Positions 2,649-19,505 of a stretch of 22,059 nt of DNA are shown piece by piece (the first letter of the stretch is position 1; every line of letters begins with the position of its first letter). Origin of the DNA: a virus; the IMG/VR virus record IMGVR_UViG_3300006793_000323, positions 1 to 22,059 of that record, one strand, 5' to 3'. The position numbers and the translations under genes are program-made. Under the pieces are notes generated by a model, which was not told where the DNA came from, did not search any database, and saw nothing but the letters and a program-made list of their open reading frames with translations.

Positions 2649-2809
2649 AATCATACCTCAGGTTAAATTTTTCGCTGATTCAGTATCATAAATACTCATT
2701 AACGGAGATTGAAAATATGATACCATGGGAACGTGATATCTACGTCGCTTTATTACAACAACATCTTGAAGAAGAAAAGTTAAAGCATCAGCAAGCGAAT
2801 GGCATCTAG
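2630..2809 (+). CDS. Small -1-frame ORF, probable frameshift extension of gp26
   Basis: As a free ORF it would be 59 aa from the ATG at 2630 (or 56 aa from 2639). It lies in the -1 frame relative to gp26 and is open back through the slippery site at 2615-2621. Slippage there would add 62 residues to the first 238 of gp26, giving a 300-aa fusion. The segment is helical and rich in aromatic and charged residues; IPWERDIYVALLQQHLEEEK resembles the C-terminal extensions of gpGT-like tail chaperones. T4 has gene 51 at this position, but this ORF is far shorter and not visibly gp51. No Shine-Dalgarno precedes either ATG, which favours frameshift expression. Its 3' end overlaps the next gene by 11 bases. 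Confidence 0.7.
   Translation: MVHMNLESYLRLNFSLIQYHKYSLTEIENMIPWERDIYVALLQQHLEEEKLKHQQANGI
2687..2694 (+). promoter_or_regulatory. Candidate late promoter before the tape-measure-like genes
   Basis: CATAAATA matches seven of eight positions of the T4 late box TATAAATA. It lies inside the small -1-frame ORF, about 105 bases before the ATG at 2799. It could give extra late transcription of the large hub and tail genes. Because it is within coding sequence, a chance match is quite possible. Confidence 0.4.
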
Positions 2810-6006: not shown

Positions 6007-9000
6007 ATGGCAATAATCGGAGCGTTGGCAAAGGGATTGGCTAAAGGCGGCGGCCGTGCTGTTGCATCTAACATTATGGGACGCAAAAAGAAGGTGAAAC
6101 CATCTGCGATTGCACCCAGACAAGATCCTCAAGGTCAACAGCAGGGTCAAAGGAAGGGTAGTGCATTAGTTAAGTCTCCTACTACAGCAATAACAAAGGC
6201 GATGGCACCTATTCAAAAGGTTTCCACTGGTCCTGTTGCTAAAGGAGACTACCTTGCCATCATTCATGAGAAGGTTCTGACCATTGAGAAGATTGTCACT
6301 GGTGTTTACAAAGCAGAGAAAGATAATCTAAAGGCAGAGAAGCAAGCAGATAAAGATGACGATAGAAAGAATAGAGAACAAAAACTAGAAACAAAAGATA
6401 AGAAACCAGAGAAGAAAAAACCATCTCTTAAACAGTTACCTAAACTTGGTGTGTTTGGTTGGCTAAAAAGATTTATAGGAAATATTTTGATGGGATTATT
6501 CCTATCTAAAATGGTTGACTTTGCAGGACTCTTGCCTGGTATAGTCAGAGCGATTGATGGTATAACAACTTTCTTGGCAGACTTTGGCATCCTAATGGTC
6601 GATGCTCTAACCACGTTTGCTGACTGGGGTATCAAAGCATATAATTTTACGTTTGGTGCCATAGAAAAAGGTATAGGTCCTCTCTTTGGAGAAAATAGTG
6701 ACAAAGTTCTTGGTTTAATAGACACTGCAATATTTTTAACAACCACCATTGCTGCTGCCATGGCAGCAGAGGCATTGATGGGTGGCGGAGATGATGGACC
6801 TGGACTCTTAGATTTTATAAAAGGAAAGGGTGCCGCTAAAGGTGCTACTGCTGCTAAGGGTGCCACTGCTGCTAAGGGAACTGCCGCTGCTGGCGCTAAG
6901 GGAACTGCTGGTGTTGCTGGTGGTGCTGCCGCTACTGCTGCTGCGGTTGTTGCTGGTGTTGGATTGCTTTCATCTGCACTAGGTGAAGGTGCTTTCCAAC
7001 TCAGAAAAATTGGTAAGGGTCTTGAAGGTGGTGCTAAACAAAGATATGAAGAGAAAGGTCCTCTTGATCCAAGAAAACCACTTGATTGGTTATTATATCA
7101 GGGAGCAAGATTTGTAAATCATAATCTTAATGGTCTTGGTCTTCTTCTTGATATCGTTGGAGCACCATTCAGATATGCGATTGAGTTAATTAGTTTTGGT
7201 ATCATGGCTCTTCTTGGTGATACTGAGGGGATGAAGAAGCAGAGAAAAAATCTTGCAAAGTTTGATGCCAGAGTTCGTGAGGGTATTCGTCAGTTATTAA
7301 ATGTAGCAACTCTAGGATTTGGGTTTAAAGAGAAAGGATCTTTTGGAAACATTTTTGGTGACAATGAAGCCACCAAAGAAATGGTGGCTAAGATGCAAGA
7401 AGGTGGTAAGGTTAAAGGATCTGGAAAGGGTAAAGTACAGCGTGGTATTAAAACTAAAAAGAAAAAAAGAAAAAAACTTAGACTTGCTAGACCAACTAGA
7501 GAAGTAATGCAACCGCTGCCTACGGTAGATGAGAAAAAACTAGATCCAGATGATGTAGAAAAAAATAATAGAGAATGGTGGGATTTCCTTGGATGGGCTG
7601 GCACTGGAAATGCTCAGAAACCACTTGGACAAGGTGGAAAAATTCTTGCAGAAAAAACAACTAAAGTTGGTAATGAGTTAGGGAAGAACGAATACTTTGG
7701 ACCTATCTTAAGAGTGGCATCCAAGTTAATTTTGGATCAAGATATTACCTCAAGAGATTATTCAAATATTGGTCGCGGTATTAATATACTGGTTGATGAT
7801 GGTTTAGTAAAAAATAAAATTGGTGTACTAGGATATAATCAAGGTGGACTTGCTGAGAATCTCCCTCAGTTAGATGTAACTGATTGGGTATCTAAAACAT
7901 TTGAGGATACCTTGAGAGATGATTTGAAGAAAAAATATTTACCTAACTCTTCGTATGGTTCTACTGACGGACCAGGTTCTATACCAGGTGATAGAGATTC
8001 TTCTTCTGGTGAGTTGGTCCCAGGAAGTTCTCCTTTTATTGGAAGCATGAAGGGAGCGCGGATTGGTGAACAGCATCTTTTAGATGCTATGAAGAAATAC
8101 AATTATACTGGTGATCCTGCTGTTCTGATGGCAATTGTAAAAGGAGAATCAAATTTCCAGGCAACAGAAGAAAAGATGTATGTTTCTGCTGAACGTGCAA
8201 ATAAGATATTTCGTGGTAGATTTAGAGATGTAGCACATGCACAACAGTTAATTAATGCTGGAAAGAAAGCATTCTATGATCATGTATATCAACCAAAGTA
8301 TGTTAGTATGAATGAAAAACCCGATGATGGATATCGATATATTGGCAGGGGTCACATTCAATTGACCGGTCGTTCAAATTATAGAGAAATTGGAGAGCTT
8401 ATTGGTAGAGATCTTGAAGGAGACCCGTTACAACTACTGAATAATCCTACTGTTTCTGCAGAAGCAGCAGTTGGTTTCATGATAAATGCAAATAAGAGGT
8501 ATGGAAAAGATATTAACACCATGGAAGGTTCTTTAAGAACAGTTGGTGGATCAGACACAAGTTGGCCCCAGAAAAGACAATATTATGAGGAATATAAAAA
8601 GAAAATTAAATCAGGACAGGTAGGTAATAATGCAACACCAGATGGAGTTGAACAAGGATTACCAGAAACTCCAGAGATGCAAGCTGGTGCTAGTGGATAC
8701 ACTGTAACTAGAAGTGGACAAACTATAAGCAACTTTTCACAACTTCCACCACACCACACATATCAAAGAAGTAAAGATGGTAGAGGTGCTTTAGTTCAAG
8801 ACTTTACTTTGTATAAGAATAAAAAGTTTTTTGGTATACCAGTTCCTTCTCCTGTAAGTGGTAAAGTTTCTTGGGCTGGTTCTGCAGGCGGTGGTGGAAA
8901 CTGGGTCGAACTTATGAGTGACTCTGGTCAAAAAGTTGAGTTAGGTCACTTTGATAAAATTGGAGTGAAAGCCGGACAAACTGTAAAAGCATTCTCAACT

Positions 9001-9450
9001 TCACTTGGTACTCAAGGATTTACTGGAAACATAAGACCAAAAAATAAAGATGGAACTCATGTTCACATGCAGGCACCAGATGAAGTGATGAAGAGGTATG
9101 TCAATACCTTAGCAAAATATCAATACGGTGGTTTAGTAAGAGGACCTGGTGGCATTGACAATGTTCCTGCCATGCTGACTGCTGGTGAGATAATCATTGA
9201 CGTTGATAGTGCTGGTCCAGCAAGGAATTTGTTACTTGCTATGAATCAGGCATCAGACAAAGCAGGGATTATCAAAGCAATCAGAGACTATGCTCCTTAT
9301 GATGCAAGAGCAGAGCAGACAGTCATAGTCCCTGAGGAGTCTGAAGATGCGCCACAGGTGATGGCATCTGGTGGTTCCTCCTCAACAACATTGTTACCAG
9401 TTCTTATGGGTGGTTCAAATCCATTTGAGTTCTTGGAATATCAAGGTTAA
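6007..9450 (+). CDS. Tape-measure/hub protein with GH19 lysozyme-like and M23-like domains (paralogue 2)
   Basis: This 1147-aa protein starts one base after the previous stop. Residues ~100-145 are charged coiled coil; ~149-260 are hydrophobic (FGWLKRFIGNILMGLFLSKM); an Ala/Gly/Lys low-complexity run follows at ~274-310. Residues ~681-870 match GH19 chitinase/endolysin landmarks: a KGES motif with Glu714, TEEKMYVSAER with Glu721/722, then YIGRGHIQLTGRSNY. Residues ~925-1030 resemble an M23 (LytM) peptidase: Asp932, LGH with His981, and the HVH motif with His1018 and His1020. The usual first zinc-ligand His, four before Asp932, is Ala928, so activity is doubtful. VPAMLTAGEI follows at 1053-1062. 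Probable role: a virion-borne peptidoglycan-cutting tail protein that opens the host wall, replacing the lysozyme domain of T4 gp5. Confidence 0.85.
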   Translation: MAIIGALAKGLAKGGGRAVASNIMGRKKKVKPSAIAPRQDPQGQQQGQRKGSALVKSPTTAITKAMAPIQKVSTGPVAKGDYLAIIHEKVLTIEKIVTGVYKAEKDNLKAEKQADKDDDRKNREQKLETKDKKPEKKKPSLKQLPKLGVFGWLKRFIGNILMGLFLSKMVDFAGLLPGIVRAIDGITTFLADFGILMVDALTTFADWGIKAYNFTFGAIEKGIGPLFGENSDKVLGLIDTAIFLTTTIAAAMAAEALMGGGDDGPGLLDFIKGKGAAKGATAAKGATAAKGTAAAGAKGTAGVAGGAAATAAAVVAGVGLLSSALGEGAFQLRKIGKGLEGGAKQRYEEKGPLDPRKPLDWLLYQGARFVNHNLNGLGLLLDIVGAPFRYAIELISFGIMALLGDTEGMKKQRKNLAKFDARVREGIRQLLNVATLGFGFKEKGSFGNIFGDNEATKEMVAKMQEGGKVKGSGKGKVQRGIKTKKKKRKKLRLARPTREVMQPLPTVDEKKLDPDDVEKNNREWWDFLGWAGTGNAQKPLGQGGKILAEKTTKVGNELGKNEYFGPILRVASKLILDQDITSRDYSNIGRGINILVDDGLVKNKIGVLGYNQGGLAENLPQLDVTDWVSKTFEDTLRDDLKKKYLPNSSYGSTDGPGSIPGDRDSSSGELVPGSSPFIGSMKGARIGEQHLLDAMKKYNYTGDPAVLMAIVKGESNFQATEEKMYVSAERANKIFRGRFRDVAHAQQLINAGKKAFYDHVYQPKYVSMNEKPDDGYRYIGRGHIQLTGRSNYREIGELIGRDLEGDPLQLLNNPTVSAEAAVGFMINANKRYGKDINTMEGSLRTVGGSDTSWPQKRQYYEEYKKKIKSGQVGNNATPDGVEQGLPETPEMQAGASGYTVTRSGQTISNFSQLPPHHTYQRSKDGRGALVQDFTLYKNKKFFGIPVPSPVSGKVSWAGSAGGGGNWVELMSDSGQKVELGHFDKIGVKAGQTVKAFSTSLGTQGFTGNIRPKNKDGTHVHMQAPDEVMKRYVNTLAKYQYGGLVRGPGGIDNVPAMLTAGEIIIDVDSAGPARNLLLAMNQASDKAGIIKAIRDYAPYDARAEQTVIVPEESEDAPQVMASGGSSSTTLLPVLMGGSNPFEFLEYQG
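6841..6894 (+). repeat. 18-base in-frame tandem repeat (Ala/Lys/Gly low complexity)
   Basis: Units at 6841-6858 and 6859-6876 differ at one base and encode GATAAK twice. A third, degenerate unit follows at 6877-6894, and related Ala/Gly codons continue to about 6960. It probably makes a flexible or helical linker after the hydrophobic block of the tape-measure-like protein. The repeat could vary in copy number between relatives. Confidence 0.7.
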
Positions 9451-9473: not shown

Positions 9474-10817
9474 ATGTCGCAAGAAGTATTTTCTAAGGAT
9501 GCTGAACCCACTAGTATTAAACAGATAGACATCCAGTCAAACGTAGACCAAAGTAAAATTGCTGGTCTTACTAATGGTTTTGCTGGAATGACTTATACAG
9601 AAAGTATCATGAGTGATACTATTAAAGTCAGAGTTAGTTTTATTGACAGTGGAGATAGTCTTGATGATAAAACTGTAACCGAGGCATTGCCTTTAGTTGG
9701 GCAAGAGCAGGTCAGATTAAAATTTTCTGATAATAATGAAAACACTTTAGAACCAATTTTATATGTCAATAAAATTACTAATAATGTAGATAGAACACAA
9801 GACTCGATGGTAACTTTAGATCTAGTATCTAAAGAGTTTATTCTGAATGAAAAGAAAAGAGTTAATCAAAGATTTGACGGCAAGGTTTCCGATCACATCA
9901 ATAAGTTGATGACTGACAAAAAATATCTTGGTACAGAAAAGACTGTTGATATCGAACAAACTTCAAACTTATATAATTTTTTTGGTAATAATAAGAAACC
10001 TTTTTATACATTGACTTGGCTGTGTAATAAATCTGTGTCAGAAGAAAATCAAACTCTTGGTAAGAGTGCTGGATATTTTTTCTATGAAACATCTGAAGGT
10101 TTCTTTTTTAAATCTATTGATGGTTTATTGAGTCAAGAACCAAAATTAAAGTTAATTTATAATGAAACACCCGACGTTAATGGTAATATCCCTGAAGGAT
10201 ATGATCAAAAGATTCTTGACTTCAAAAAAGATAACAGTACAAATGTGCAAAGCAAATTGCAGATGGGTGCTTTCTCTAGTAGAACGGTTTTATTTGATCC
10301 CTTTACATGCTACTATGAAGTAAAGGCACCAAACGTATCAGAGAAGGGTGTTGAGGAATCATTAACACTAGGTGGTAAAGATTTATATCTTGGAAAGAAA
10401 TTTAGAAATAAAGAGTTTGACCAGGAAGGAACGAACGAAGAGTTCTCAAGAACAACTTACTTCTTACTCGATAAAGGAACTGCTCCAGCTGGAGATGTTG
10501 ACCAACAACTTTCTAAGTCAGGAGAGGAGAACTTTGAGTATGGTCAAATTGCAAATCAATCTGTTATGAGGTACAATCAAATGTACTCTGCGAGAGCAAG
10601 TATAACGATTGCAGGTAATTTTTCTTTGCACGCTGGCGATGCGATTTACATAGATTCACCAGGACTTAAAAAAGAAAAGACTTCTGATGTGGATCGCAAA
10701 GATGGTGGGCTATATATTATAACGGATATCTGTCATCAAATTACATCTGAAGGAACATATACTCAATGCAATTTAGCTAGAGACTCTTTCGGAAGAAAAC
10801 CAAAATCACGTAATTAA
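9474..10817 (+). CDS. 27: Baseplate central hub protein, gp27-like
   Basis: The 447-aa protein has the strand-rich make-up of a hub ring protein. It opens with IKQIDIQSNVDQSKIAGLTN and a SIMSDTIKVRVSFIDSG strand block, then VTLDLVSKEFILNEKKRV, and ends with GDAIYIDSPG and a YIITDICHQI...YTQCNLARD closing segment. That last segment is common to gp27/GpD-type hubs, where it closes the second barrel. T4 gp27 (391 aa) forms the trimeric ring that holds gp5. The location one small gene upstream of gp5 supports the call. A GAGGT at 9461-9465, eight bases before the ATG, is one of the few good ribosome binding sites here. The identification rests on layout and fold-like features rather than on strong sequence identity. 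Confidence 0.7.
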   Translation: MSQEVFSKDAEPTSIKQIDIQSNVDQSKIAGLTNGFAGMTYTESIMSDTIKVRVSFIDSGDSLDDKTVTEALPLVGQEQVRLKFSDNNENTLEPILYVNKITNNVDRTQDSMVTLDLVSKEFILNEKKRVNQRFDGKVSDHINKLMTDKKYLGTEKTVDIEQTSNLYNFFGNNKKPFYTLTWLCNKSVSEENQTLGKSAGYFFYETSEGFFFKSIDGLLSQEPKLKLIYNETPDVNGNIPEGYDQKILDFKKDNSTNVQSKLQMGAFSSRTVLFDPFTCYYEVKAPNVSEKGVEESLTLGGKDLYLGKKFRNKEFDQEGTNEEFSRTTYFLLDKGTAPAGDVDQQLSKSGEENFEYGQIANQSVMRYNQMYSARASITIAGNFSLHAGDAIYIDSPGLKKEKTSDVDRKDGGLYIITDICHQITSEGTYTQCNLARDSFGRKPKSRN

Positions 10818-10822
10818 AAAAA

Positions 10823-11050
10823 ATGGAAAGTGTAGAAAAGCATATTGAAGTAGATAAAAAGATCCTTGAAGATCCAACTACTTCGCCCCAACAACGTCGC
10901 CACATTGAAGGCGAACTAAATGAACTCAATGTATATGTTGAGAATCATAAGGAAGAAATTGCTGCTGGTGACCATCATGATCCTACAGCATTAGAACTTT
11001 ATTGTGAGATGGAACCTGAAGCAGACGAATGTAGGATGTACGACGACTGA
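10823..11050 (+). CDS. CP12-like small protein
   Basis: This 75-aa acidic protein ends DPTALELYCEMEPEADECRM-YDD. The C-x8-C pair (Cys61, Cys70) followed by R-x-YDD is the C-terminal signature of CP12, the disordered Calvin-cycle regulator that locks GAPDH and phosphoribulokinase into an inactive complex. TTSP at 19-22 also aligns with the TTSPEC region of cyanobacterial CP12. The N-terminal cysteine pair is absent and the AWDxVEEL core is degenerate (GELNEL), so phosphoribulokinase binding may be changed. Cyanophages are known to carry cp12. Here it sits in the hub operon: 5 bases after gp27 in an A-run with no Shine-Dalgarno, and TGATG-coupled to gp5. It would be expressed late. Alternatively it is a virion protein that only resembles CP12. 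Confidence 0.72.
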   Translation: MESVEKHIEVDKKILEDPTTSPQQRRHIEGELNELNVYVENHKEEIAAGDHHDPTALELYCEMEPEADECRMYDD

Positions 11051-12897
11051 TGGAAGGAGGAACACTATTTAACCCTGGATTTCTTGGAGCGTCTTTCTTA
11101 TGGTGGGTCGGTCAGATTGCTGACGACTCTACTTGGAGGGAGAATATTAACGAAGGTAATTATGAGGACAAATATAGTATTCCTGGTTGGGGTAAGAGAT
11201 ATAAAGTAAGAATCATTGGTCTTCATGACCAAGGTGAAACTGATATTCCTTCAGATCAGTTGCCTTGGGCAAATATTATGTATCCTGTCACGGGAGGTGG
11301 ATTCCAAGCAAATGGTGGAGCATCATCTCAACTCCGTCAGGGGAACATGGTGTTTGGTTTCTTTCTTGATGGACAGGACCAACAAGTTCCTGTCATTATG
11401 GGAGTCTTGGGCAATAACTCTCAGACAGAACTATCCCAAATTATCGGTGATAATTCTGTAACTAACGCTCAAGCAGGAAGTATTGCGAAGAGTGGATATT
11501 CTACTGGTAAAAAAAGTAAAGGTAATGCAAAGGAGATTACTCCAGACCAAGACAAGGTAATTAAACAACCTGCAAGAAAGGGAACTACAGCAAAACATTC
11601 ATCAGGTAGCGCAAATTCTACTCCGACTGCTGCTTATGATCCTTTTGATCCAAATCTAGATAGATCTGCTGAGGCAACTCTCGCTCGTGAAGATGCAGCA
11701 GTAGCGGAAGCACTTGCCAGAGAAGCAGCTGCACAGAAGGAAGCACAGTCGGAGGCAGGACCAGGTGCTCCACCAGCACCAGGGGCAGCTCTTGAAAATG
11801 AATCCGTCCATCAAATCACTGCTGGAGATGTAAAAAGATCTGCTAAGTGTGATGAAAAGATTGTTTTGATGAAACCAGATGGGCAAAATAATCTAGTTCA
11901 GTCAGCATTGAAAGGTATTCAAACTGTAATAGAAAATCTTACTAGTAAAATTGATAAGTATCTTCAGGCAATCCAAAGTTATGTTGATGCTGTCTCTAGC
12001 ACTATTAATAATTTACAGAAATTAATCAGAGATGCTGCTTGTGAAATAGCAAAATATATCAAAATCCTTATGGATAAGGTAATGGAGTATGCGATGAAAA
12101 TACTCAATAAAGGAATGAATGCAGTTGTTGCGGCACTTCCATCATCTCTGAGATATCAATTCTCTGATATGAAAGAGGTTCTTACAGAATTATGCATGTG
12201 TTTATATAATAAATTGATGGATGGAATGTGTGATCTCATAGCAGGAGTTTTAAATGATGCTTTGAATCCAGACCAACTTGAAAAAGATGCTAATGACAGA
12301 GCATCAAAGGGTGTGGATGATAATGGAAAAACTCCTAATGATAAAACAAATCCTAAAGTTCCTATTTGTTATTCGGAAGACATTGTAAGTTCTGTTTTTG
12401 CAGGTAAAAAATCTGCTATTGATGATGCTAATAATAATCTTCTTGATAATATGAATGCATACATGGAAGATATCTCTAGCATGTTGGCAGGAGTATCAGG
12501 TGCCCTTGCTGATATAAAAAATTTGATTCCAGATATTAGTGGAGGTATGGCAGCTGCGATGAATTTTACCAATCTTAGTTTTAATGTTTTTGGGTGCGAT
12601 TTATCTCCTAATGTTGCTACATCAGATATATACACGTTCTGCGCTGGTGGTGATGGAACACCTCCAGGACAATTACCAAGTGAAGCATCTGTTGCAAAGG
12701 GAGTTGTCAATGCTACGGAAGGACCTGCAATTGAAGACACTCCGTATGTTGAACCCACTAGAGACACGCCACCAGTAATTCATCCTAAACCAGTAACTAC
12801 TGTGAATCCAGAAACAACAGAAATTACGAGTAGACCCTTGACTCAAGCAGAGCAAACGGAGAGACAAGCAGCCATAGATTCTCTTGATATTTCATGA
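11050..12897 (+). CDS. 5: Baseplate hub protein, gp5-like OB-fold without lysozyme domain
   Basis: Of the 615 residues, 18-122 match the N-terminal OB-fold of T4 gp5: WWVGQIAD, YKVRIIGLH (51-59), DIPSDQLPWANIMYPVTGGG, GNMVFGFFLDG and VPVIMGVLGNN all have direct T4 counterparts. After that the resemblance stops. There is no lysozyme domain and no beta-helix repeats. Instead there is an Ala-rich, charged linker (~190-250), then a long helical region (~270-520) with several cysteines, and a Pro/Thr-rich tail. The OB-fold should sit on the gp27 ring. The start codon shares its A with the stop of the CP12-like gene (TGATG). The missing functions seem to lie elsewhere: lytic domains in the 6007-9450 protein and a beta-helix in 19531-20163. 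Confidence 0.85.
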   Translation: MEGGTLFNPGFLGASFLWWVGQIADDSTWRENINEGNYEDKYSIPGWGKRYKVRIIGLHDQGETDIPSDQLPWANIMYPVTGGGFQANGGASSQLRQGNMVFGFFLDGQDQQVPVIMGVLGNNSQTELSQIIGDNSVTNAQAGSIAKSGYSTGKKSKGNAKEITPDQDKVIKQPARKGTTAKHSSGSANSTPTAAYDPFDPNLDRSAEATLAREDAAVAEALAREAAAQKEAQSEAGPGAPPAPGAALENESVHQITAGDVKRSAKCDEKIVLMKPDGQNNLVQSALKGIQTVIENLTSKIDKYLQAIQSYVDAVSSTINNLQKLIRDAACEIAKYIKILMDKVMEYAMKILNKGMNAVVAALPSSLRYQFSDMKEVLTELCMCLYNKLMDGMCDLIAGVLNDALNPDQLEKDANDRASKGVDDNGKTPNDKTNPKVPICYSEDIVSSVFAGKKSAIDDANNNLLDNMNAYMEDISSMLAGVSGALADIKNLIPDISGGMAAAMNFTNLSFNVFGCDLSPNVATSDIYTFCAGGDGTPPGQLPSEASVAKGVVNATEGPAIEDTPYVEPTRDTPPVIHPKPVTTVNPETTEITSRPLTQAEQTERQAAIDSLDIS

Positions 12898-12903
12898 TAA
12901 ATA
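12896..12903 (+). promoter_or_regulatory. Candidate late promoter for the giant structural gene
   Basis: GATAAATA matches seven of eight positions of the T4 late box. It overlaps the gp5 stop codon and lies 32 bases before the ATG at 12936. This is one of the few real intergenic gaps in the operon, which makes a promoter here more believable than one inside a gene. Confidence 0.6.
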
Positions 12904-12935: not shown

Positions 12936-15900
12936 ATGTCGTTTAATATCTTCGGACCAACGCAAAAAAAAGATATTCAAGTTGGATATATTTCAACTGA
13001 TAGAGGTTATATACAAAATGTTAGCATCCTTGCTGCCAACAATTATGCATTTAAAAATCCTGGCACCACTTTTATCGTAGAGACGAGAGATGGAGTAAAA
13101 TATTTTAATATAAATGAGGTTAATAATTTAAAACCAGAGGATATTCTCCCAAGTAATACTGCTGCAGATGGAACTTGTCAGGGAGTGGTTGGTTTAAGTC
13201 CACAAACTATTGGAAATGCTGTTGCAATAGGAACTGGAAGTCCTGGTAATAATACAAATCTGCATGATTATCTTCCTCGCGGACCATATGGACAACGACC
13301 AACTGGACTTACACCTCCTACAGACCGACCAACTGGACTTACACCTCCTACAGACCGACCAACTGGACTTGGACCTGCTCCTACCGGCATTGGAACGGTT
13401 GGTAATGGAGGTCCGATTGTAGTTATCTCTGGGTGTGGTGGTGTTGGTGCATCTGCTGTTCCTATCATCGGTGATGATGGTGGTATTTTGGATATTGTAG
13501 TGACTTCTGGTGGATTTGGATATAGGTGTCCACCAAAAGTTAGTGTAATTGATCCAAATAAAAGGGGAAGTGGAGTTGTTGCTACATCAGTGATTGGTGT
13601 ATCAACATCTCCGACACTAATAACTTATGATGATGAGGATGATTTTGAAATATATGATTTCGATCCTAGAAATGGTATTCCAGGTCTCACTGGATATGGA
13701 AATAGAGTAGGTCCTGATGGAGATGATTTAGGAGACTGGGATCCAACTTTATATGCTACTTTTGCAAAGGATCCCATCGGTATTGAGATTGCAAGATACC
13801 AAAAATATTTAAAAGAATTAAGAAATCCTTGGTGGTCTACTAGAAAAGAGACTCCTTTAAATATTTCGTTTGGGAAAAAGAAAGATAGAGTAAAACATGA
13901 TGTACAACATCATGCTTGGGATGGTGATGAGAAACTTAAATCAGGACTCAACACTCAGTATAAAGATGTAGAGTTTGAGGTTTTCACTCAAGGTGGAAAT
14001 AATGCTGATAAAGGGTTGATATTTAAGTTTGTTTCGGAAGATGGATCCCACAAATTTCAATTCAAAGCAGAGAGTTATACAGACAGTAGAAAGACTAAAG
14101 TCACGAAAAAGATAAGAGTAAACACTACCTATTTGATTACTTCCTCAGGATCCTTTAAAGGGGGAGGAGTTGAGCAAGGTCTTATCGGAAATCTTGGAAG
14201 AGACGCAAAAGAAATTAAAGGCAATAATAAAAAAGGATCTACTATATTTGCCGACTTTGTTAGGTCATCTAATGACAATGATGATTTACAAATCAGAGCA
14301 ACTCAAGGTAGATTTACTGCGACTGGTGAAAGAAAATTTGAAGGACATTCTACAACTGACCTTGAATATAGATTTGATGTTAAGGGACCTGGTGCTGGTA
14401 CGGATAAGAAAATAAAACCATCATTCATGAACAACTATGCTATTTCTCCTGTTCCTGCATCAGATGTTCCTGGTAGTGATTTTGCTGGTAGATGGTGTAC
14501 CTTTGATTGGGAAGAAGATTTCCCTTATTCGGGTGAATATGTCTTCAGAGGAATGGCAGATAACATTGGTAAGATGTATCTTGATAATGAACTCATCATG
14601 GAAGCAAGACATTTTAGAGGAGATCCATTACCTTCTAATGTAATTAAAAAAACTGTTGAGGCAGGAGTTCATAAAATTAAGGTAGACCTGTTTAATGCAC
14701 CTCAGAAAGATAATACTTCTACCACTGTAAAAAATAATACGCAAGATGAGAAGAAAAAAATTCCTGTAAACTTTGATGTTTATGGTCAGGGAAGTAAGAG
14801 CAATACTGCTATTAATATGGTGTTTACTTCTGAAGATGGCAAGCATTCGTTTACATTTAAACCAGAAAAACTTAAAGGTAGTAAGTACGATTACAAGAAA
14901 ACAGTAAGAGTTTTTCCAAACACTCAATATAAAGTGCAAGCAATTGCTACTGCATCACATAGAATTAGAAGGAATGATCCATCACCAACCCCAAACAGTG
15001 AAACAAAATTTCCTATAGCAATCACGGGCAATTCTTCCACTTCGGGGTTAGAAGTTAATGATAGTGGAAAAAGAATTAGATATGATGATAATGCCGCCAA
15101 TGGTTTTGATGAGAACGCTCAACTTAGAATTATGTCATCGTCTCCTGGAGTTAATGCCAGATTCTCTAGAGATGGGTCAGAACTTGTGGTTAGGGGTTCG
15201 GGTGATGTCACCTTAAAGTTTAGTTGGGATGATAACCCCAATACCTCTGGACTCGCAGTAGGAAGACTGACAGTAGGAGGACAAGTTTTCCAACAGATTA
15301 ATGAAAAAGGTAGTCAAACCAAAACTGTTACCATTGGAAGTAATGTTTCAGGTGTTAGTGGTAATGAAAGAAGCACTCCTATTAACTATACGAATTTAAA
15401 TTCTGCAAATCTAGGACAAATCGATGTTTCGCGTAGTGGTAGTAGAATTAAATTAAAAGATGGTGACGGTAATGATACGAATGCATCTATTCGTATCCTG
15501 AATGTACGAAATGGGACAGCAAAATTTAGTAGGAGTGGCACGCAAATAATTACGACAGGTAATTGTAGAGTTACGATCAAGTTAGAGTGGGATGATAATC
15601 CAAGAACTGCTGGAGTTGCATTAGATTCTGTTGAAATTGGTGGAGTTAATTTCAGAAGAAGGGGTGAGGATGGAGATGTTACTAAAGATGTAACATTTGA
15701 GGCAGTAGAAGCACCCGTAAGTAGAGATCAAACCGTAAACTTGGTTCCAGAACAAGGAACTTTGAAATCAAATGCGTTCAAAAAAGGTAAACAGAAAGAA
15801 AATGGCACTAGATCTAATGTAATTTTTGCCGACATCATTGGGTCTGTAAATGATAATGATGACATGCAAGTGAGATGTGGTCAAGGAGTTTTTGTCCCAA

Positions 15901-18900
15901 CTAATAGAAGAAAGATTACCGGAACTGGACCTAGGGGTGAGCAAACTAGAAGCACTTGGGATCTTACTTTTACAGTAAACGCAAAACCATCATTAAAACC
16001 TAAAGATTCTGGAACAAATGTAACTGAAATCTTTAACACTACAGACTACATTAATAAGGCAGATAGAAAACTTTGGAGAACAAATCTCTACGGTAATGCT
16101 TCTTTTTTAAATGCATATGGAATCTGCCCCTTCAATACGGTCACTAAAAAGAATGAAGATTATGATGGAACTCATATAATTCGTTGGGAACACATCACTT
16201 TTCCTGCTGATGGCAATTATCAGATTGAACTGGAAGTTGATGATAAAGTCAAACTATTCATTGGTAATCGCTCTGGTGCTGGCGCTATGGGAATTGGTAA
16301 TGGACTGAAAAATGTTGATAATGGTGGAGATGAAGTTATCATTGAGAAGGACGGATTTGTAGGAGGCAGTAACAGGTCAACTGGAAAGAGCACCTACACT
16401 AGATTCTTTAGGAAAGGTCAGTATAGAATCAGAGCAGAACTTTATCAAAAACCTGGTGGTGATTTTGGTTTTAGTGGTAGAAAATCTTATGGACAAAAAG
16501 ATGGGTCCAATATCTCTGCAAAGTTTGTCAGACGTGGAGACAAAAACTTTCTTAAGGTAGATGGATCTGGGACTGCAGAAATTAGTTTTCGTTTAAGAGT
16601 AGATGATAATCCAAGAGTATCTGGAATTTTTGGATCTAAAGTTAAAATCGGTCGTCCGCCGAATGATTATGTTCTTCTGTCTAGAAGAAAATCTGGAAAT
16701 GGGTATAAAGAAAAAGAAAGAATTACTGGGTCTGATACATTTGAGGCAGGAAGAGAGTATCCCGTAGAGACTATTGGATCATCTAGAGGAACAGGATCTG
16801 TTATAAAAAATAATGGAAGGACAATTGAATATGATGATAACATTGGCAACGGATTTGATGAGAACGCAGATCTTTCTATCACTAAAGTAAAAAATAAACA
16901 GGGCGCACCTAATAAGGGACTCAATCCAATGGCGCTTGCCATTAGAATTAGGGCAGATGTGCTTGAAACTACTAGAATCTCCCCCAGAACCTGGAATCAA
17001 AATCCAATGGGAGCAGCATTCACTATTGATGCACCTCTTCCACCTATTCCCATCTCACCCAAACCAATTAGCGAGGGTAGATGTCCAGATAACCCTACAT
17101 GGACTACGAGATTCTCTGGCGGTAACGAAAAGTGGTGGCCTGTTACTCATAAATTTAGAGATGGATCAAGGTCGTGGTCTAAGTTTATGAATAGATTTGC
17201 AATCTCACCGATTCCTCCTTTAGGAACAATCAATAGTGATGGTGGTGGAATTGTTTATAGAAACACTTGGAATATTGACATTCTTCATGCAGGTTTTTAT
17301 GCACTCAAAGGAACTGTTGACAATGGAGGAAGAATTTTAGTTGATGGCGCAGAAAAAATGCGTGGAGGTTATTTTAGTGGCGCGACGTTTGCTGGTTCAG
17401 GTTCAGAGGGTCAGGGAAGATTGGCAGGATTTAGAGAGACATCTCCGCCGATGCATAAGTTCTACTTAGATGAAGGTAAGCATACCATCACTGTTGAAGT
17501 TGAGAATCAAAAGACTCTTAAGCAAAAGAAAGTAGAGAAAAAAATCTTCAGCACTCGGGATTGGAGAGAACCAAAACCAAAATCCTCAGGTGGAGGAAAA
17601 CCAACAAATGTTGACTTTAGAGTTACGACTGATGCAAAATTTGCAAACTCAGTTGAATTTGTTGGTGAATTTTCTTTCGGTAAAACTTATGATGGACCAC
17701 AATTGAGGGAGTCTACCACTAAATCTTTACTAGATGGTACTGTATATGATGTAATCTTTAATAGTAATCGTGGTGGTGGCAATACTAGTAGTAGTGGTGG
17801 TGAATATACAATCAACTATGAATATGCAAATGCCACTGCTTTTGGTTTAGAAGTTAATGATAGTAGAAAAAGAATTAGATATGATGATGATGCCAGCAAC
17901 GGTTTCGATGAAAATGCTCAACTTAGGATCATGTCATCATCTCCTGGAGTTAATGCTAGGTTCTCCACTGATGGAACTAAACTTTTAGTTCAAGGTGATG
18001 GGGATGTAACAATCAAATATGATTGGGATGACAATCCAGGTACTTCTGGATCTGTTTTGAGGTCCCTCGAAATTGCCGGAAAAACTTGGAGACAAAGTGG
18101 TGGATCGGGTGAGCAAACTGAAACGATAAGAGTATCTGGTCCAACTGGTCCAACAAGAAGTAGAACTCCTGGTAACAATAACTCAAATATTAAACTTAGA
18201 AATGCTGGTGAGAAAGTTGTTCAGATGGAAGACCATACTGATAATGATTGGAGTGATCTTGTTATTAGTGCATCTGTTGGTAGATTTTATGATTTTAACG
18301 GTAACAGATGTAAGTTTGCGCTTGCGCCAACCACTCCCACAAAAGATGTAAGAGTAACTAAGGGTGGTGTTACTTATGTGGGACCCCCATTGTTTGTTAT
18401 TAAGTCTGGAGCAGCAGCTAAATTTTGGAGTAAATATATGCTGAGAAACTCTGTTTCTCCTTTCATTCCCCCAATAGATGTAGATAGTACTAATCATCTT
18501 GGAGACAAAACATATATTTGGAAGAATGTTGATTTCTTTGAGTCTGGACAGTACAAATTCTTATTCCAATCTGATGATGGAGCAACTCTTTATATTAACG
18601 GTAATAAAGTTGTAGAGTCTAAATCTAATTTTAGAGGAGAAGCTAGTCCTACATATGCGGAACTTTCTCCAGGAAAATATGAGATAAAGGTTGTTTGTAA
18701 CAATATAAGGTTTGATAGAAATGTTTTGACAGGCAATAATCCAACTGGATTTGCTCTAAAAATCATGAAGGATGTTGTTATCTCTGAAAAATCATTCCCA
18801 TGGACAACCAATCCTGTTGGAATATCTGCAATGCTGATCCCGCCACCATGTCCTAAAGTTGTTAAAGGAAAAGGGGTAGTCACTGATATCATTGTAAAAG

Positions 18901-19505
18901 ACCCTGGAAATGGGCATGAACCAGATAAAGGACCAGGAACTCCCACGATAGTTACGATTAAAGATATTGAACCAACTCTTCCTGGCATTAACTATAGTTC
19001 AGGTGACATAGGAATCATTAATGATATCCCTGTCACTCTTGAAGTTGATAATTTTGGTAGAATTACTAAAATCAATGTTCCTACAGGTAGTGGTGACGGT
19101 GATGGTAGTGGTACAGCAATTAGAGTTACAGATACTCCTGTAATTGATGTACCATCTTTGACTGGAGTTGGATTTAGAGGAACTCCTATCTTAGAAACAA
19201 CTATTGTTCCAGAGGAAGTATTTGCGCCCGAAGACATAATCCAAGTTACAGATTTGGTTGGTCTTACACAAAACGGTTATGTCAATGGCAAACCTTACTA
19301 TGGCAGTGTATTCTCCAGAGATGGTAGATTGTTTGCTGGAATCTATGAAACAACTGGAGAATTAGTTCCTGTTTATGCAACTCTTCAAGAGAGTATTGCT
19401 AATAGAGTTACCACTAGACCTTCTGCAATCCTTAGACAGGGTACAAGTGCCAACAGTAACAATCCTAACCTTAATATTCCAGGAACTCCTCAAAATCTCA
19501 TCTAG
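12936..19505 (+). CDS. Giant modular virion structural protein (2189 aa), likely adhesin or fibre
   Basis: The N-terminus (~1-70, IQVGYISTDRGYIQNVSI) looks like a docking domain, followed by a Pro/Thr repeat linker and a Gly-rich GGFGYRCPPKVSV module. The body alternates modules. Four PA14-like beta-sandwich units start near residues 497, 1057, 1417 and 1834, sharing F/YMNxxAISP, a W-x-F/I segment, GxYxF and LYINGNxVxE. At least four modules end in a DDNPxTSG hairpin (near 764, 885, 1223, 1697). D/N-rich stretches (SNDNDDLQI, VNDNDDMQV, HTDNDWSDL) may bind calcium. The C-terminus (ITDLVGL-like, then NPNLNIPGTPQNLI) resembles other large cyanophage structural proteins as I recall them. PA14-like units usually bind glycans, so host-surface attachment is plausible but inferred. 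No enzyme motif is seen. No Shine-Dalgarno precedes the ATG. Confidence 0.8.
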   Translation: MSFNIFGPTQKKDIQVGYISTDRGYIQNVSILAANNYAFKNPGTTFIVETRDGVKYFNINEVNNLKPEDILPSNTAADGTCQGVVGLSPQTIGNAVAIGTGSPGNNTNLHDYLPRGPYGQRPTGLTPPTDRPTGLTPPTDRPTGLGPAPTGIGTVGNGGPIVVISGCGGVGASAVPIIGDDGGILDIVVTSGGFGYRCPPKVSVIDPNKRGSGVVATSVIGVSTSPTLITYDDEDDFEIYDFDPRNGIPGLTGYGNRVGPDGDDLGDWDPTLYATFAKDPIGIEIARYQKYLKELRNPWWSTRKETPLNISFGKKKDRVKHDVQHHAWDGDEKLKSGLNTQYKDVEFEVFTQGGNNADKGLIFKFVSEDGSHKFQFKAESYTDSRKTKVTKKIRVNTTYLITSSGSFKGGGVEQGLIGNLGRDAKEIKGNNKKGSTIFADFVRSSNDNDDLQIRATQGRFTATGERKFEGHSTTDLEYRFDVKGPGAGTDKKIKPSFMNNYAISPVPASDVPGSDFAGRWCTFDWEEDFPYSGEYVFRGMADNIGKMYLDNELIMEARHFRGDPLPSNVIKKTVEAGVHKIKVDLFNAPQKDNTSTTVKNNTQDEKKKIPVNFDVYGQGSKSNTAINMVFTSEDGKHSFTFKPEKLKGSKYDYKKTVRVFPNTQYKVQAIATASHRIRRNDPSPTPNSETKFPIAITGNSSTSGLEVNDSGKRIRYDDNAANGFDENAQLRIMSSSPGVNARFSRDGSELVVRGSGDVTLKFSWDDNPNTSGLAVGRLTVGGQVFQQINEKGSQTKTVTIGSNVSGVSGNERSTPINYTNLNSANLGQIDVSRSGSRIKLKDGDGNDTNASIRILNVRNGTAKFSRSGTQIITTGNCRVTIKLEWDDNPRTAGVALDSVEIGGVNFRRRGEDGDVTKDVTFEAVEAPVSRDQTVNLVPEQGTLKSNAFKKGKQKENGTRSNVIFADIIGSVNDNDDMQVRCGQGVFVPTNRRKITGTGPRGEQTRSTWDLTFTVNAKPSLKPKDSGTNVTEIFNTTDYINKADRKLWRTNLYGNASFLNAYGICPFNTVTKKNEDYDGTHIIRWEHITFPADGNYQIELEVDDKVKLFIGNRSGAGAMGIGNGLKNVDNGGDEVIIEKDGFVGGSNRSTGKSTYTRFFRKGQYRIRAELYQKPGGDFGFSGRKSYGQKDGSNISAKFVRRGDKNFLKVDGSGTAEISFRLRVDDNPRVSGIFGSKVKIGRPPNDYVLLSRRKSGNGYKEKERITGSDTFEAGREYPVETIGSSRGTGSVIKNNGRTIEYDDNIGNGFDENADLSITKVKNKQGAPNKGLNPMALAIRIRADVLETTRISPRTWNQNPMGAAFTIDAPLPPIPISPKPISEGRCPDNPTWTTRFSGGNEKWWPVTHKFRDGSRSWSKFMNRFAISPIPPLGTINSDGGGIVYRNTWNIDILHAGFYALKGTVDNGGRILVDGAEKMRGGYFSGATFAGSGSEGQGRLAGFRETSPPMHKFYLDEGKHTITVEVENQKTLKQKKVEKKIFSTRDWREPKPKSSGGGKPTNVDFRVTTDAKFANSVEFVGEFSFGKTYDGPQLRESTTKSLLDGTVYDVIFNSNRGGGNTSSSGGEYTINYEYANATAFGLEVNDSRKRIRYDDDASNGFDENAQLRIMSSSPGVNARFSTDGTKLLVQGDGDVTIKYDWDDNPGTSGSVLRSLEIAGKTWRQSGGSGEQTETIRVSGPTGPTRSRTPGNNNSNIKLRNAGEKVVQMEDHTDNDWSDLVISASVGRFYDFNGNRCKFALAPTTPTKDVRVTKGGVTYVGPPLFVIKSGAAAKFWSKYMLRNSVSPFIPPIDVDSTNHLGDKTYIWKNVDFFESGQYKFLFQSDDGATLYINGNKVVESKSNFRGEASPTYAELSPGKYEIKVVCNNIRFDRNVLTGNNPTGFALKIMKDVVISEKSFPWTTNPVGISAMLIPPPCPKVVKGKGVVTDIIVKDPGNGHEPDKGPGTPTIVTIKDIEPTLPGINYSSGDIGIINDIPVTLEVDNFGRITKINVPTGSGDGDGSGTAIRVTDTPVIDVPSLTGVGFRGTPILETTIVPEEVFAPEDIIQVTDLVGLTQNGYVNGKPYYGSVFSRDGRLFAGIYETTGELVPVYATLQESIANRVTTRPSAILRQGTSANSNNPNLNIPGTPQNLI
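13296..13370 (+). repeat. 30-base in-frame tandem repeat, 2.5 copies
   Basis: Units 13296-13325 and 13326-13355 are identical, and the first 15 bases recur at 13356-13370. Each encodes RPTGLTPPTD, a proline-rich linker between the N-terminal docking region and the rest of the giant protein. Identity at the DNA level suggests recent slippage or expansion. Confidence 0.9.
15048..15251 (+). repeat. Copy A of a ~204-base internal duplication
   Basis: It aligns without gaps to 17847-18050 at roughly 80% identity by hand count; the first ~120 bases are more alike than the rest. It encodes a unit from LEVNDSGKRIRYDD through NGFDENAQLRIM to SWDDNPNTSG. A more distant third relative (NGFDENADL) lies near 16840. 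Confidence 0.9.
17847..18050 (+). repeat. Copy B of the ~204-base internal duplication
   Basis: It aligns to 15048-15251 at a constant offset of 2799 bases with no indels. It encodes LEVNDSRKRIRYDD through NGFDENAQLRIM to DWDDNPGTSG. Most early differences are synonymous, which points to duplication or gene conversion inside the giant gene. Confidence 0.9.

Follow-up and report, generated by a model that had tools for sequence, protein, structure and literature searches.

A CP12 gene embedded between baseplate-hub genes of a T4-like cyanophage: probable function and plausible late expression

Among the main means by which infecting cyanophages have been proposed to halt carbon fixation in the ocean is CP12. 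The C-terminus of CP12 binds GAPDH and PRK binding lies near the N-terminus (reviewed in PMC11257934; PMC9406205). Canonical CP12s have an N-terminal cysteine pair and an AWD_VEEL core (PMC3906501; PMC9406205), and CP12 of Synechococcus elongatus 7942 is described as having no N-terminal cysteine pair (PMC11257934; PMC9406205). For cyanophage CP12 in general, slowing of the Calvin cycle via host GAPDH has been proposed (PMC5082946; PMC3906501). That cyanophages carry cp12, as the earlier note on this DNA said, has been in print since at least 2010, when the gene was placed "near gp5" in some cyanophages, gp5 being described as a hot-spot with tRNAs, and S-PM2 was reported to have no cp12 (PMC3037559). 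In P-HM2, cp12 is reported to belong to a middle expression cluster together with the other auxiliary metabolic genes of the phage and to be highly expressed (PMC5082946). Host CO2 fixation has been reported to cease 2 h sooner in infections by S-RSM4 than by S-PM2 (PMC10665884); the effect cannot be assigned to cp12 in particular, because S-RSM4 also has talC, gnd and zwf. In the available text of the literature joining cyanophage CP12 with gp27, gp5 or the baseplate, nothing was found about the arrangement described below as such. The gene type and its placement near gp5 are already known, and the copy reported here adds another example.

The window analyzed here is a stretch of 22,059 nucleotides of viral DNA (IMG/VR record IMGVR_UViG_3300006793_000323). 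Its cp12 and the surrounding features are as follows.

2688 to 2694, plus strand: ATAAATA, T4-late-promoter-like, at the head of the hub unit, followed by a small ORF in the place of gp51.
9474 to 10817, plus strand: gp27-like baseplate hub/tail protein gene of the T4-GC15 type (phrog_350 'tail protein', E = 1.8e-96), in the same order as in named phages.
10818 to 10822, plus strand: AAAAA, the 5-nt gap between the gp27 stop and the cp12 start; no promoter motif of cp12's own was seen in the window.
10823 to 11050, plus strand: cp12, 75 aa, a C-type CP12 (C-terminal cysteine pair only) matching PF02672, phrog_627 and PDB CP12 chains.
11050 to 12897, plus strand: gp5-like baseplate hub gene (Pfam Gp5_OB, E = 3.8e-6; phrog_33098 'baseplate hub and tail lysozyme', E = 5.5e-208).
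12897 to 12903, plus strand: ATAAATA directly past gp5, ahead of the PA14 protein gene, with no copy on the plus strand between 2695 and 12896.

The TGA of cp12 (11048-11050) shares one base with the ATG of gp5 (11050-11052), forming a TGATG junction; together with the 5-base gap after gp27, this bears out the tight coupling to hub genes on both sides described earlier. The name gp27 for phrog_350/T4-GC15 follows the earlier note and the gene order, the records themselves saying 'tail protein'. No match to an Rfam family and no tRNA was found in the window. Elsewhere in the window, the 1147-aa product of 6007-9450 combines GH19 chitinase-like with M23 peptidase domains and is likely a tail-borne cell-wall enzyme, and a putative virion protein of 2189 aa with PA14 domains is encoded at 12936-19505, a position whose equivalent in S-SM2 is also occupied by a PA14 protein.

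The product of 10823-11050 belongs to the CP12 family. The profile search proposed in the earlier note, which had called the ORF CP12-like, gave a clear match to Pfam PF02672 (E = 4.4e-11), which scores 43.8 bits where the curated cut-off is 22.7 and spans residues 3-74 of the protein and positions 4-70 of the 70-position profile; the protein also matches phrog_627 (E = 1.2e-38). As a single sequence it found CP12 chains among solved structures at E values of 0.0065 to 0.055, and a profile of 38 relatives matched the full-length CP12 chain 6gfo (residues 5-77) at E = 1.3e-6. We take 6gfo to be the Thermosynechococcus protein. The same Pfam cut-off is passed by the host copy of Synechococcus WH7803 (L139), by those of P-HM2 (L091) and S-RSM4 (L186) and by two further loci (L053 and L002), as well as by the P-SSM2 protein, with its tail only. 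NCBIfam gave no CP12 match at E up to 0.01; it is uninformative here because a host CP12 used as query was also unmatched. In P-SSM2 (L190, 2809-3075) only the last 24 residues of an 88-aa protein are shared with CP12 (Pfam E = 9.8e-7 over residues 64-87), the front half not matching the CP12 profile.

How does the window protein compare with known CP12s? With the canonical proteins (6gfo, 3qv1, 6kez) it shares the C-terminal GAPDH-binding loop, here C61-x8-C70 (CxxxPxxxxC, with P65), and the YDD/YDN tail, here an acidic C-terminus ending in C-R-M-Y-D-D, whereas it has neither their N-terminal cysteine pair nor their AWD_VEEL core; AWD is absent from every row of the alignment, host rows included. 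It has two cysteines only, as had been noticed before, and this is not odd, because all 80 host picocyanobacterial CP12s examined (69 distinct) have only two as well; the missing pair was accordingly discarded as a sign of repurposing. Judged by its sequence, the window protein is the C-type variant of the family, the local picocyanobacterial form. Host CP12s such as that of WH7803 (L139) belong to the same family, likewise with the two C-terminal cysteines only, at about 35-48% identity to the window protein (tblastn), but are without two features of the phage proteins, the TTSP stretch and an insert of 5 residues that precedes DHHDP. TTSP, residues 19-22 of the window protein, had been read as a CP12 motif; it proves instead to be a phage-lineage trait, since it is in none of the 6 host rows of the alignment and none of the 10 host rows printed from the cysteine survey, and it does not serve as a CP12 signature.

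Among phages, the cyanophage CP12s of the T4-GC337/phrog_627 group (S-SM2, Bellamy, S-SSM7, S-RSM4) resemble the window protein in length (70-76 aa), in the CxxxPxxxxC ending and in the gene order gp27-cp12-gp5. Identity of the window protein to the aligned named phages is 50-77%, and its closest relatives are metagenomic loci at 91-92%. CP12s of P-HM2 and MED4-213 share the family and the cysteine loop but differ in being 70 aa long and encoded ahead of talC, outside the hub operon. C61, P65, E69 and C70 are invariant in all 38 aligned phage and host sequences, and the C-x8-C ending is present in 107 of 107 translated phage copies (86 distinct). Conservation of both the cysteines and the YDD end had been anticipated; it holds for the former throughout the 107, while the tyrosine, third from the end, is kept in 93 and gives way to His in 11 and to Phe in 3. 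All 80 host copies end in YDD. The His-type tail, ECKxHDN, is found for example in L053 (3001-3225), L084 (4001-4225) and Syn9 (L175, 15325-15534). Replacement of this tyrosine by His or Phe could alter the affinity of phage CP12 for GAPDH.

CP12 relatives were found by tblastn in 367 of 50,697 phage records, at one place in each; many are annotated as CP12, and all 367 records are named Synechococcus, Prochlorococcus, cyanophage or marine virus. Relatives of gp27 are present in 438 phage records. The comparison with other cyanophages that the earlier note called for shows the arrangement to be widespread. In 27 named genomes, hand-picked from the match lists and inspected around cp12, gp27 lies directly 5′ of cp12 in 22, and gp5 comes next in 12 of these 22 (S-SM2, Bellamy, S-SCSM2R, Sf-CH8, S-CAM4, S-SCSM1, S-CAM9, S-SSM7, SynMITS9220M01, ACG-2014i, S-BM3 and S-RSM4); the S-RSM4 gene is embedded exactly as in the window. 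In the remaining five (P-HM2, S-SKS1, S-TIM54, MED4-213 and P-SSM2) cp12 is elsewhere. No tail genes were seen in the initial 20 kb of S-PM2, inspected as a 28th stretch. Among the best 80 of 285 IMG/VR relatives, gp27 is directly upstream in 60, one (L015) is at a contig edge and 19 are elsewhere; L015, whose 30 upstream nucleotides match the gp27 end of other loci, was scored as non-hub in the locus count, the dN/dS analysis and the tree, making the non-hub counts one too high. Neighbors were inspected for 12 of the 20 loci scored as elsewhere, and cp12 there lies mostly among small genes. A second tail-linked home was seen in L042 (3001-3228) and L044 (818-1045), where the end of a 235-aa ORF and cp12 overlap and cp12 has as neighbor what we take to be a baseplate-wedge-like gene. 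The ORF 3′ of cp12 in both is presumably gp25-like, and in L044 a presumably gp6-like ORF is present as well.

When is a cp12 gene in this position expressed? T4-type late promoters have ATAAATA at their core; TATAAAT was searched as the T4 late motif by Sullivan (2010). The window carries ATAAATA twice on its plus strand, before the hub unit (2688) and past gp5 (12897), with cp12 in between; as this is fewer than the 6.7 copies expected by base shuffling, simple scatter of the motif through AT-rich DNA does not account for the sites, small as their number is. The 83 hub loci give 71 distinct 60-nt upstream stretches once duplicates are dropped. ATAAATA is present within these 60 nt in 12 of the 17 with a gap of at least 21 nt, where base shuffling predicts 0.6 of 17, and in one of the 54 with a smaller gap; L067, with the motif at −70, was scored as being without it. 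Among non-hub copies the motif precedes cp12 in 12 of 17 distinct stretches (L015 not scored). From the operon layout and these late-like motifs it is plausible that cp12 is expressed in step with the baseplate genes. The cp12 of P-HM2 is preceded by ATAAATA overlapping TTGACA, and because this middle-expressed gene carries the same motif, ATAAATA suggests late timing without proving it and is weakened as a pure late marker. In several loci (L176, 14322-14352; L184; L182; L091), ATAAATA is followed, by eye, after about 4 nt by a TGTATAAT- or GTATCAT-like box. Such an ATAAATA plus TGTATAAT/GTATCAT-like combination 5′ of several cp12 genes may be a dual late and host-like promoter. A terminator scan of the window region stayed near the shuffle level.

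The alternative that survives best accepts a functional CP12 but not late timing: cp12 would be driven in the middle phase by an internal, host-like sigma-70 promoter within gp27, its position in the hub being incidental. It draws on the published middle-phase, high expression in P-HM2 (PMC5082946), on sigma-70-like hexamers seen by eye beside ATAAATA upstream of cp12 in P-HM2 and S-SM1, and on weak sigma-70-like matches inside the window's gp27, such as one ending at 10577. Against it, promoter-like matches in the window region stay close to the shuffle level (16 against a mean of 12.0, s.d. 3.4), and of the 54 distinct embedded loci with a short gap, just one carries ATAAATA within the 60 upstream nucleotides. 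We regard this account as unlikely, though it deserves to be weighed.

The earlier note had also considered that a CP12-like peptide has turned into a structural or assembly factor, which would here work in the baseplate hub together with gp27 and gp5. The very tight coupling to both hub genes, in the window and its relatives, and a position conserved across many genera would fit such a role, but P-HM2 builds its tails with the site empty, gp27 and gp5 abutting there and sharing base 14775, and with cp12 beside talC; other genes, such as cpeT, tRNA-Val and an oxygenase gene, part cp12 from gp5 in 10 of the 22 gp27-linked genomes (Syn33, Syn9, S-SM1, S-8S29, S-SSM5, ACG-2014b, Syn19, P-RSM1, ACG-2014d and S-WAM1); and the GAPDH-binding cysteine loop is kept everywhere. 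CP12s 92% identical to the window copy sit in clusters of small genes away from tail genes, and such near-identical proteins outside tail operons argue against a structural role. On these grounds a structural role is very improbable. For S-SM1 virions, 41 proteins are reported in a supplementary table, and the text section on them names no CP12 (PMC3037559). Of the earlier reading as a whole, the CP12 identity and the tight embedding stand, TTSP as a CP12 trait falls away, and the structural or assembly alternative is not favored.

The phage cp12 family is under purifying selection. Hub-embedded copies gave a median dN/dS of 0.10 (interquartile range 0.07-0.13; 255 pairs with usable synonymous divergence among 62 distinct 75-codon copies) and non-hub copies 0.07 (49 pairs, L015 being counted as non-hub). 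A protein tree of 104 rows, rough and poorly resolved because it rests on 75 columns, separates the hosts from the phages as a single group with full support; among the phages, hub and non-hub copies are intermingled, and well-supported branches require seven or more switches between the two, L015 being miscounted as non-hub. The nearest group to the window (L005, L011, L016, L028, L030 and L050) is entirely hub-embedded. That cp12 is an unneeded or inactive passenger of a mobile insertion at the gp5 hot-spot, as its variable positions, the reported hot-spot (PMC3037559) and those switches might suggest, is hardly credible in view of the dN/dS of about 0.10, the intact reading frame in all 93 loci L001-L093 and the very wide distribution over 367 records.

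We favor, at a probability of roughly three in four, the reading that the phage CP12 encoded by the window is functional and that its gene is an auxiliary metabolic gene lodged in the late transcription unit of the baseplate hub in a T4-like cyanophage. The S-RSM4 observation on CO2 fixation fits this reading within the limit given above; the loss of the C-terminal tyrosine in 14 of 107 phage copies tells against it. Having no promoter of its own within the hub unit, cp12 would be transcribed by read-through and translated in coupling to gp5, chiefly during the late phase. By binding host GAPDH, the oxidized C-terminal loop (C61-C70) and the tail would slow the Calvin cycle, directing ATP and NADPH to nucleotide synthesis; as the N-terminal cysteine pair is absent, the protein probably does not gather PRK via an N-terminal disulfide. 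The cp12 of the window is thus a real virus-borne gene whose product probably shuts down the carbon fixation of ocean cyanobacteria during infection.

A broader proposal is tentative, possible rather than probable: in most cp12-bearing T4-like cyanophages CP12 would be made late, with the hub, so that carbon fixation would be shut down in time with virion assembly or the end of infection and not with DNA replication as in the model based on P-HM2, the talC-adjacent cp12 genes having shifted to the middle phase. The published expression evidence considered here is from P-HM2, in which cp12 neighbors talC. Should the hub-embedded majority express cp12 late, the accepted view of when and why the Calvin cycle is blocked would need qualifying.
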